A stretch of 64,000 nucleotides of DNA, taken from assembly GCF_000058485.1 (NCBI RefSeq), contig NC_008278.1, positions 6,132,962 to 6,196,961 on the forward strand, given 5' to 3'. The stretch is from Frankia alni ACN14a (GTDB taxonomy: Bacteria > Actinomycetota > Actinomycetes > Frankiales > Frankiaceae). The notes beneath the pieces were generated by a model. It ran no database searches and was not told where the DNA came from. It worked only from the letters and a program-made list of their open reading frames with translations. Positions 52,950-56,872 of the stretch are shown in pieces. Position 1 is the first letter of the stretch. The number at the start of each line of letters is the position of its first letter. The position numbers were made by a program, and so were the translations under genes.

Positions 52950-53278
52950 GTCAACCAGCCTACGGCGCGTCGCTCGCGGCCAGGTGGGCGACCGGCGCCC
53001 CGCCAGGCCGGACCGCCGGGCCGGGTCGACCGCACCGCGACGTCGCCCGGAGGGACGTGGACCCCCGAATCCATGTCGTTAAATATACAGATTCGCGGTC
53101 TTCGACGGCCCGTCGCGTATCATCCGCGAATGTCGCCGCAACGGTCCGGAAACGCTGGCGCAGCGGCCGTCCACCTGTCCGGCCCACGACAATCCGCGCG
53201 CCTGGCCCGTCCGTCCCGGATCCGCCGGGATGCTCGGTCCACCACCACACCGTTCTGCCATTGTGTCGGGAGGTCGAT

Positions 53279-54013
53279 GTGCCCCTGGTGACCCTGGAGG
53301 GAGTCGGGAAGTCCTTCGGCGACAACCGGGTACTGAGCGACGTCGATCTTTCTGTCGAGGCGGGAGAGGTCGTTGTCGTCATCGGGCCCTCCGGGTCCGG
53401 GAAGTCGACGCTGTGCCGCTGCATCAACCGGCTGGAGACGATCGACGAGGGCCGTATCCTGTTCGAGGGGAACCCGCTGCCCGCGGAGGGGCGGGAACTC
53501 GCCCGGATGCGCTCCCGGGTGGGAATGGTTTTCCAGTCGTTCAATCTGTTCGCCCACCGCACGATTCTCGACAACGTGACGCTCGGGCCGACGAAGGTGC
53601 TCGGACAGAAACGGGGCCAGGCCGAGGCCCGCGCCCGCGAACTGCTGACCAGGGTCGGCATCGCGGACAAGGCCGACCGGCTCCCCCGGCAGCTCTCCGG
53701 CGGCCAGCAGCAGCGCGCCGCCATCGCCCGGGCGCTGGCCATGGACCCGGTTCTCATGCTGTTCGACGAGCCGACCTCGGCCCTGGATCCCGAGATGATC
53801 TCCGAGGTGCTCGACGTCATGCGGTCCCTGGCCGCGACGGGAATGACCATGATCGTGGTTACCCACGAGATGGGCTTCGCCCGCTCCGCCGCCGACCGCG
53901 TGGCCTTCATGGCCGACGGTCGCATTCTGGAGATCGCGCCGCCCGACGACTTCTTCGGCGCGCCAAAGTCGGACCGGGCCAGGGACTTCCTGGCCAGGAT
54001 CCTGCAGCACTGA
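53279..54013 (+). CDS. gluA: Glutamate ABC transporter ATP-binding protein GluA
   Basis: 244 aa. Intact Walker [11 protein letters not shown]-loop VFQSFNLF, signature LSGGQQQR, Walker [15 protein letters not shown] and H-loop VTHEMGFA. It drives amino acid uptake with GluB-GluC-GluD. GTG 53279 follows GGGAGG by 5 bases; extension upstream lacks homology. First gene of the rightward glu operon; the next gene starts 229 bases on. Confidence 0.93.
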
Positions 54014-54014
54014 T

Positions 54015-54105
54015 GCGCAAGCACTGAACGCAAGAGCTGGTCGCAACGCAAGGGCTGGTCGCAAGCACCGACGCAAGCACTGCCACAAGCACTGACCGGG
54101 GCCGG
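54015..54105. repeat. gcaagcactg dispersed repeats between gluA and gluB
   Basis: Five or more copies of gcaagcactg/gcaacgcaag-like units occur right after the gluA stop, near 54018-54100. A GGGGCCGGCCCCG stem follows. This may be an RNA processing or attenuation region. Confidence 0.5.
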
Positions 54106-54242: not shown

Positions 54243-55235
54243 ATGCGTACACCGTTCAGTCGGGGCCGGCGGCCATCCGCCGGGCGTCCTACCGGTGACC
54301 CCGGGCAACCCGGCGGGAACTCACCCCGACGTTCCGCCGGGTCCGGCCGCGCCCGGCGGCGCGGCGGCGCGCTGCTGCTCGGCGCCGCGATGGTCGCCAC
54401 CCTCGGCCTGACCGCCTGTGGCAGCAGCGACGACGACACCAAGGACGCGGCGCCCACGGGCGCCGCGGCCAGCTTCGCCCCGGGCACCACGATGGCCCGC
54501 CTCCACGACGCCGGGAAGATCACCGTCGGGACGAAGTTCGACCAGAACCTGTTCGGCCTGAAGAACCTCAGCGGCAAGCCCGAGGGCTTCGACGTCGAGA
54601 TCGCGGAGATCATCACGGATGCCCTCGGGATCCCCCGGGACAAGGTGAACTTCGTGGAGACGGTGTCGGCCAACCGTGAGCCGTTCATCCAGCAGGGCCG
54701 GGTCGACATGGTCGTCGCCACGTACACGATCAACGACAAGCGCAAGAAGGTCGTCGACTTCGCCGGGCCGTACTACGTCGCCGGACAGTCGATCATGGTG
54801 GCGAAGAAGAACACCGACATCACCGGCAAGGACTCCCTCGCCGGCAAGAAGGTGTGCTCGGTCAGCGGGTCCACCCCGGCGGAGAACATCCGCAAGGTGG
54901 CACCGGCCGCCCAGCTGGTGCTGTTCGACGTGTACAGCAAGTGCGCGGACGCGCTGAAGAACGGGCAGGTGGACGCGGTCACGACCGACAACGTGATCCT
55001 GCTCGGCCTGATCGACAAGGATCCGGACGCCTTCAAGCTCGTCGGCGGCACCTTCACGAAGGAGCCGTACGGCATCGGGATCAAGAAGGGCGACACGGCC
55101 TTCCGGACGTTCATCAACGACACGCTGGAGGCCTCGTACTCCGACGGCCGCTGGGCGAAGGCGTTCAGCTCGACCGTCGGGAAGGTCGAGCCCAACACCC
55201 CGACCCCGCCGCCCGTCGACCGCTACACCTCCTGA
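54243..55235 (+). CDS. gluB: Glutamate-binding lipoprotein GluB
   Basis: 330 aa substrate-binding protein. After an Arg-rich start comes a signal peptide with lipobox LGLTACGSS, so it is lipid-anchored outside. SBP_bac_3 features: KITVGTKFDQNLFGLKN, GFDVEIAEIITDALGI, QGRVDMVVATYTINDKRKK and FAGPYYVAGQSIMVAK. Closest type is glutamate/aspartate binding. ATG 54243 follows AGAGGATC. It delivers substrate to GluC/GluD. Confidence 0.93.
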   Translation: MRTPFSRGRRPSAGRPTGDPGQPGGNSPRRSAGSGRARRRGGALLLGAAMVATLGLTACGSSDDDTKDAAPTGAAASFAPGTTMARLHDAGKITVGTKFDQNLFGLKNLSGKPEGFDVEIAEIITDALGIPRDKVNFVETVSANREPFIQQGRVDMVVATYTINDKRKKVVDFAGPYYVAGQSIMVAKKNTDITGKDSLAGKKVCSVSGSTPAENIRKVAPAAQLVLFDVYSKCADALKNGQVDAVTTDNVILLGLIDKDPDAFKLVGGTFTKEPYGIGIKKGDTAFRTFINDTLEASYSDGRWAKAFSSTVGKVEPNTPTPPPVDRYTS

Positions 55236-55310
55236 CCCACCGGTCGCGGTGATCGGCTGGTTCCGCCGGTCACCGCGACCAGGCGTTCCACCGCACGAGG
55301 GAGCTTCGCG

Positions 55311-55958
55311 ATCGACGCCGTCTTCGACAACCTCGACATCTTCGCCGAGGGATTCCGCCGCACGGTGGGCCTGAGCCTGTTCGCGGCGATCGCGGCGCTG
55401 ATCCTCGGCACCGCGCTCGCGGCGATGCGGGTCTCGCCGGTGCCTCCCCTGCGCTGGCTCGGCACCGCCTACGTGGAGATCGTCCGCAACACCCCGCTGA
55501 CAGTGGTGTTCTTCTTCGTCGTGTTCGTCCTGCCGCAGGTCGACATCGTGTTCTCCTACTTCACCTTCGCGGTGGTCGCCCTGTCGATCTATCACGGAGC
55601 GCTGGTCTGCGAGGCGGTCCGCTCGGGCATCAACGGGGTCGACCTCGGTCAGGCGGAGGCCGCCCGCGCGCTCGGCCTGACCTTCACCCAGTCACTGCGG
55701 ATGATCGTGCTGCCGCAGGCGTTCCGCAACGTGCTCCAGCCCCTCGGCAGCGTGATCAGCGCCCTGATCCGCAACACCTCGATCGCCGCGGCGTTCGGCG
55801 TCCAGGAGCTGACCGGGGTCGTGCAACGGCTGACGACGGCGAACCCGGACTCGGTCATCGCCGTTCTGCTCGGCGGCGTGGTCGCCTACCTGATCCTCAC
55901 CCTGGCACTGGCGGGCGCACTGGCCCTGACCGAACGACGGGTGGCGAGGGCACGATGA
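55311..55958 (+). CDS. gluC: Glutamate ABC transporter permease GluC, probable ATC start
   Basis: 215 aa, HisM-type permease. MSD motif: EAARALGLTFTQSLRMIVLP (EAA loop). The frame opens after the gluB stop (55233) but has no ATG or TTG and only a poor CTG (55257) before a GTG at 55365. Starting at that GTG would lose IDAVFDNLDIFAEGFRRT, the segment that lines up with the normal N-terminus of GluC proteins. GAGGGAG (55297-55303) sits 7 bases before ATC 55311, a good ribosome-site distance. I therefore propose AUC initiation, with GTG 55365 as fallback. The stop overlaps gluD as ATGA. Confidence 0.8.
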   Translation: MDAVFDNLDIFAEGFRRTVGLSLFAAIAALILGTALAAMRVSPVPPLRWLGTAYVEIVRNTPLTVVFFFVVFVLPQVDIVFSYFTFAVVALSIYHGALVCEAVRSGINGVDLGQAEAARALGLTFTQSLRMIVLPQAFRNVLQPLGSVISALIRNTSIAAAFGVQELTGVVQRLTTANPDSVIAVLLGGVVAYLILTLALAGALALTERRVARAR

Positions 55959-56872
55959 GCGGCACGCCGATCGTCCTGGCGGATCCGCCCGGCCCCCGGG
56001 GCCGGCGGCGCATCCTGATCTCCAGCATCGTCGCGCTCGCCGTCATCGCCGGGCTGATCACGTTGGCCCTGCTGCGGCTGGCGGACCACGGGCAGCTCGA
56101 CGGCGAGCTGTGGAGCGTGTTCGTCGACCAGCCAGACCTGCGGACCCTGCTGTGGAACGGCCTGCTCGACACGCTGCGTGCGGCGCTGACGGCGATGGTC
56201 TTCGCCGTGGTCCTCGGCGTCGCGCTGGCGATGGCGCGGATGTCGCGGCACCGCGCCGTGCGCATCCCCGCCACCGCCGTGGTCGAGCTGTTCCGCAGCC
56301 TGCCGGTGCTCATGCTGATCCTGTTCGCCTACCTGGGGCTGCCGGCGCTCGGCTGGAAGCTGTCGGCTTTCTGGGCCCTGGTGCTCGGCCTGACCGCCTA
56401 CAACGGGGCGGTGATCAGCGAGATCTTCCGGGCGGGGATCGCCTCGATCGACCGGGGGCAGACCGAGGCCGCCGCGGCGCTCGGGCTGCGGCCGGTGCAG
56501 GTCTTCCGGCTCATCCAGTTCCCGCAGGCGGTCCGGCGGATGAGCCCGACCCTGATCAGTCAGCTGGTGACCCTGCTCAAGGACACCTCCCTCGGTTTCG
56601 TCATCGCCTACAGCGAGCTGCTGCGCTCCGGGCGCGGCGCCGTGGAGTTCCTCGGCAGCCGGTACGCCCTGCCGATCTACACGGCGATCGCGGTCATCTA
56701 CATCGTGACCAACAGCCTGCTGTCGGCACTGGCCCGGTGGCTCGACCGGCGGCAGAACCGCCGGCTCGGCGGCGGGCACGCGCAGCTGCCCCTGGACGCC
56801 GCGACGGCCGCCGGCGCCCCGCCGGCGGCAGCGGTGCCCGAGCAGGGCGGCTCGGGTGGCACCCTGACCTGA
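55955..56872 (+). CDS. gluD: Glutamate ABC transporter permease GluD
   Basis: 305 aa permease. TM segments start near residue 20 (LISSIVALAVIAGLITLALL), then an EAA loop EAAAALGLRPVQVFRLIQFP and YAIPIYTAI-like end. Together with GluC it forms the transport channel. ATG 55955 overlaps the gluC stop (ATGA). The C-terminal ~45 residues are Ala/Gly/Pro-rich. Last gene of the operon. Confidence 0.92.
   Translation: MSGTPIVLADPPGPRGRRRILISSIVALAVIAGLITLALLRLADHGQLDGELWSVFVDQPDLRTLLWNGLLDTLRAALTAMVFAVVLGVALAMARMSRHRAVRIPATAVVELFRSLPVLMLILFAYLGLPALGWKLSAFWALVLGLTAYNGAVISEIFRAGIASIDRGQTEAAAALGLRPVQVFRLIQFPQAVRRMSPTLISQLVTLLKDTSLGFVIAYSELLRSGRGAVEFLGSRYALPIYTAIAVIYIVTNSLLSALARWLDRRQNRRLGGGHAQLPLDAATAAGAPPAAAVPEQGGSGGTLT

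Follow-up and report, generated by a model that had tools for sequence, protein, structure and literature searches.

A probable AUC start codon for a gluC-like permease gene, conserved across Frankia and Parafrankia

Where does translation of gluC begin in Frankia? Frankia and Parafrankia are nitrogen-fixing bacteria living with plants, and the 64,000-nucleotide stretch of Frankia alni ACN14a DNA analyzed here (the window; positions are counted from its first letter unless otherwise stated) carries a permease gene whose probable start had been placed at AUC, a very rare start codon. Direct reading of the sequence agreed with the preliminary description that no ATG, GTG, or TTG lies in frame between the gluB stop and GTG 55365: the gluC-frame codons at 55236-55364 contained none, and the first canonical start was this GTG, codon +18 when ATC 55311-55313 is counted as 0. 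Based on comparisons with relatives, the start codon in use is very probably AUC 55311, while its purpose is a matter of graded likelihood.

The gluABCD-like operon and the start region of gluC

Profile searches of the window identified an operon in the order ATPase, binding protein, permease, permease (Table 1), which we take to be the order of the gluABCD glutamate uptake system of Corynebacterium glutamicum (ATPase, binding protein, two permeases). While the C. glutamicum system takes up glutamate, the Frankia operon is likened to it by gene order and gene families, with a putative substrate specificity. The name gluC thus follows operon order, and its identity as a glutamate transporter permease is putative; in the profile search, no equivalog model reached its cut-off for glutamate specificity of GluC. 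The gluB product matched TIGR01096 with an E-value of 7.6e-49, yet under the curated cut-off. GluC scored above the cut-offs of both TIGR01726 (HEQRo_perm_3TM; 83.2 bits, cut-off 42.2) and PF00528 (65.5 bits, cut-off 26.4), and had a solved relative in 4yms chain D (E 3.7e-29). The gluC stop and the gluD start overlapped as NTGA in 19/19 Frankia and Parafrankia species (ATGA or GTGA, and TTGA once).

Table 1. Positions of the operon genes and of features around the gluC start in the window, and of infC in the source genome
Feature	Position	Strand	Remarks
gluA-like ABC ATPase gene	53273..54013 (approximate start)	+	GlnQ/EhuA-type ATPase models, E ~1e-91
gluB-like solute-binding protein gene	54243..55235	+	ATG start, TGA stop 55233-55235; SBP_bac_3, E 2.6e-27
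Strong hairpin, gluB-gluC spacer	55242..55280, arms 55242-55257 / 55265-55280	+	16-nt inverted repeat, 94% complementary
Shine-Dalgarno GAGGGAG	55297..55303	+	G at -12, -11, -10, and -8 in 16-19 of 19 species; neighbors vary
Probable ATC start codon of gluC	55311..55313	+	19/19 Frankia/Parafrankia, all three bases invariant
gluC permease gene	55311..55958	+	215 codons + TGA
gluD second permease gene	55955..56872	+	PF00528, E 5.3e-20; its ATG within ATGA 55955-55958, overlapping the gluC stop
Frankia infC (L185), source genome	near 5653636-5653845 (source genome)	-	ATC in start position

Starting at AUC 55311, GluC would begin with fMet-Asp-Ala-Val-Phe-Asp-Asn, residues 2-17 counted from the ATC being DAVFDNLDIFAEGFRR. 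The 18 residues that a start at GTG 55365 would drop had been said to align with GluC N-termini, and the TIGR01726 profile bore this out, being covered at positions 2-99 from the ATC (83.2 bits) vs. 14-99 from the GTG (71.4 bits). The Shine-Dalgarno (SD) motif GAGGGAG was likewise located as described, occupying 55297-55303 and separated from ATC 55311 by 7 nt. SD/anti-SD duplex energies, calculated with what we assumed to be the standard anti-SD tail sequence, ranged from -7.9 to -17.6 kcal/mol in the 19 species and from -5.8 to -17.3 kcal/mol in canonical-start homologues. Given this overlap, the SD of the ATC-bearing clade is good but not uniquely strong.

The start column across relatives

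We searched for GluC in the whole genus and family, in a sample of the class, and also in a public genome collection. The check proposed earlier, inspection of the start codon in close relatives, returned ATC at the same column in 19/19 species, comprising 13 Frankia genomes (source genome included) and 6 Parafrankia genomes. Named Frankia with ATC were sp. AiPs1, torreyi CpI1, sp. QA3, tisae, gtarii, sp. AiPa1, sp. R82, sp. AgB32, nodulisporulans, canadensis, and sp. AgKG'84/4, and the relatives included Parafrankia soli, P. colletiae, and Parafrankia sp. EUN1f. A sequencing or assembly error in this codon, the alternative offered in the preliminary description, is excluded given that 18 further Frankia and Parafrankia species carry the same ATC in their genomes, among them named assemblies produced by different groups; the probability that we leave to it is negligible.

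Outside this clade, the same column was canonical in 31/32 more distant homologues (ATG in 18, GTG in 13). These homologues came from two other genera in the family, from additional actinobacterial families, and from MAGs. The sole exception (L048) had an ATG three codons before the column and another one codon after it. These counts, together with the invariant ATC within the clade, go beyond chance and upheld the earlier proposal of a probable AUC start. A maximum-likelihood tree was inferred from 51 GluC proteins with the start residue left out, and in it all ATC rows formed one clade with support 100/98. Given that one change is needed to account for ATC rows in one supported clade, ATC has a single origin, and the AUC start, as read from these sequences, goes back to one event in the common ancestor of Frankia and Parafrankia.

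Conservation had a sharp edge at this codon. Column counts across the 19 species gave ATC in 19/19, nearly invariant codons after it, and mixed columns upstream except for the SD block; relative to the window copy, residues were changed in 205/306 codons at positions -17 to -1 vs. 42/306 at +1 to +17. In a competing reading, gluC would start further along, at GTG 55365 or at the ATG of codon +38, and the conserved codons ahead of that start would be untranslated leader. In its favor, the ATG at +38 was found in nearly all species, and the window shares the GTG at +18 with its closest relatives. However, the GTG was absent in L011, L012, L013, L014, and all Parafrankia, and we rejected GTG 55365 as the gluC start because it is not conserved. 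Moreover, codons +1 to +17 were protein-like and matched the N-termini of homologues that have ATG or GTG at the ATC column, the first 12 positions of TIGR01726 would be lost with the GTG, and, judging from the alignment to 4yms, the first membrane span would go with a start at +38. We consider a downstream start very unlikely.

It is even less probable that the ATC is a plain Ile codon inside the gene and that ribosomes initiate upstream of it, at starts differing between lineages or by reading through from gluB. Such a reading draws on several species with an in-frame GTG, TTG, or ATG upstream, and on the window itself, in which gluB and gluC share one reading frame. In L007, L009, L010, L014, L015, L144, L145, and L148, an in-frame canonical codon 3-29 codons upstream could serve as the start. 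However, four species had no usable upstream start, for which reason we rejected upstream starts as a general answer. In L011, a TGA closed the frame four codons ahead of the ATC and no canonical start followed until +26, L143 and L013 had an open frame without a canonical codon until +26 and +30, respectively, and the one upstream canonical codon of L012 was a GTG 60 codons away, inside gluB. The upstream codons also lacked protein conservation. Across the 19 species, gluB-gluC spacers measured 34-203 nt, varied in sequence apart from the SD block, and placed the two genes in frame relations 0, 1, and 2, so that gluC as an extension of gluB or a fusion with it is impossible in general and was rejected.

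The AUC start at 55311 is also consistent with a class of conserved non-canonical starts, as gluC appears to combine a start other than ATG, GTG, or TTG, conserved in relatives, with an SD at proper spacing. Apart from infC, not many bacterial genes are known in which a non-canonical start is retained over many species, and gene finders generally miss such starts; annotations that place the GluC N-terminus at a standard start codon would be wrong across Frankia. We also surveyed the window against three genomes for a second gene lacking a canonical start and found none, although this crude, noisy method is not a reliable negative, given that it missed even gluC, hidden behind an overlapping hit in the gluD frame. 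The survey raised ten flags, seven of which were inspected, and those that could be resolved looked like shadow frames of other genes or contained a conserved ATG at a more internal position.

Precedents and a possible role for weak initiation

Conserved non-canonical starts are already known from infC, sigR (GUC), and ccpN (AUA), and gluC would add the case of an ABC permease, well supported as a start by sequence comparison. Our literature search, which had partial coverage and reached few subscription papers, turned up neither a conserved non-canonical start, AUC included, for an ABC permease gene nor an account of this Frankia case. The infC gene is reported to start with ATT in Escherichia coli and ATC in Streptomyces (PMC5472188). 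In Frankia, we found ATC behind a GGAGGAA-type SD in 11/11 genomes in which the IF3 gene was found, and the gene thus appears to be AUC-started in this genus. Given this start in infC itself, initiation from AUC codons is to be expected in Frankia. Like gluC, infC (AUU, AUC, or AUA starts) has an AUN start behind a strong SD, kept within a lineage; unlike gluC, which encodes a membrane permease with no tie to translation fidelity, infC is autoregulatory.

Two further cases resemble gluC in other respects. Streptomyces sigR begins with a GTC that IF3 represses, lies in an operon with ATGA coupling (Feeney et al. 2017, PMC5472188), and shares with gluC its actinobacterial setting, genus-wide conservation, strong SD, ATGA overlap, and a partner-protein stoichiometry at stake. 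However, it differs in codon and gene class, and its IF3 effect was experimentally shown, whereas that of gluC is putative. In Staphylococcus aureus, the starts of ccpN (AUA) and cvfC1 (AUU), found by Ribo-Ret, are conserved, non-canonical, accompanied by SD motifs as in gluC, and associated with lowered initiation (PMC13009471); these genes encode regulators or small proteins and have extended SD motifs, in contrast to the transporter subunit gene gluC. Initiation at AUC has been weak in measurements on other bacteria: in one reporter set, AUU, AUA, CUG, and AUC as a group reached 0.1-0.3% of the AUG level in E. coli vs. 5-20% in two clostridia (PMC9680021).

If AUC 55311 is the start, the GAGGGAG motif would hold the 30S subunit at this codon, and the ordinary initiator fMet-tRNA would be used, mispaired at the third codon base. 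Given that IF3 discriminates against AUC-type starts, AUC would throttle GluC. GluD, whose start lies inside the gluC stop (ATGA), would be coupled to GluC and throttled with it, and GluB, which has its own ATG and an mRNA hairpin after its gene, would be left in excess over both permease subunits. We infer the low efficiency, the stoichiometric purpose, the GluC-GluD coupling, and the IF3 sensitivity of the gluC start. A regulatory purpose of AUC, by which the cell would make little permease compared with binding protein, seems to us somewhat probable.

Whether AUC is under selection was approached through the third codon base, at which a C-to-G change would give AUG. Across the 19 species, G appeared somewhere at 32/37 of the C-majority fourfold sites in gluC, with 5/37 sites without G and 2/37 invariant, and a reversion to ATG was seen in none of the species. 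Given that most fourfold sites gained G while the start never became ATG, there is a hint of selection for AUC, and its retention by selection is suggestive, the argument being one from a single codon. An internal Ile codon of gluC (column 152) was also ATC in 19/19 species, so that AUC and AUU are indistinguishable as the selected form. Weak starts are known to tend toward AUG, ancestral GUG having changed to AUG in 202/5,080 cases vs. 363/61,358 for AUG to GUG, and an AUG-to-AUU switch was seen once only in this large start-codon survey (PMC5622118). AUC has thus stayed the same as two genera diverged and most fourfold sites in the gene changed. This pattern suggests selection for weak initiation itself, possibly keeping the transporter subunits below the binding protein.

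A different account accepts the same AUC start and departs from ours in the functional part alone: AUC could be a neutral relic, fixed once by drift, without a regulatory role or meaningful IF3 control. The single origin of ATC fits such a relic, as does the point that one site is insufficient to prove selection, the regulatory role of AUC being putative. On the other hand, no reversion to ATG, presumably the stronger start, occurred despite G having been gained at so many comparable sites, the SD was retained, and the sigR (PMC5472188) and ccpN (PMC13009471) precedents are functional. We regard a neutral relic as a real contender, if on balance a doubtful one.

In addition to Streptomyces sigR, gluC is thus a candidate actinobacterial gene for control by IF3. 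A broader proposal, that gluC and gluD of Frankia and Parafrankia belong to a small set of IF3-controlled AUC-start genes through which the IF3 level tunes amino-acid uptake alongside infC, is tentative and rather unlikely. If true, IF3 tuning of uptake could act, for example, in nodules or under nitrogen change.

Hairpins and repeats in the intergenic spacers

The gluB-gluC spacer of the window had a fold of -43.6 kcal/mol, and its strong hairpin (Table 1) was not followed by a T-run. Most relatives also had strong spacer hairpins, unrelated in sequence, and L012 and L013 had weak folds only. These hairpins may shield the 3' end of gluB or cause attenuation of transcription further downstream. 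In the spacers of L016, L017, L144, L146, and L147, the gluB stop-codon context (e.g., CTCCTGATCCA or CACGTCTGATCGC) was seemingly repeated several times downstream, as though the gluB 3' end had undergone tandem duplication. Repeats were also present between gluA and gluB in the window, where the spacer directly 3' of the gluA stop (54016-54094) contained four copies of the short direct repeat CGCAAGCACTG and an 18-nt tandem pair.
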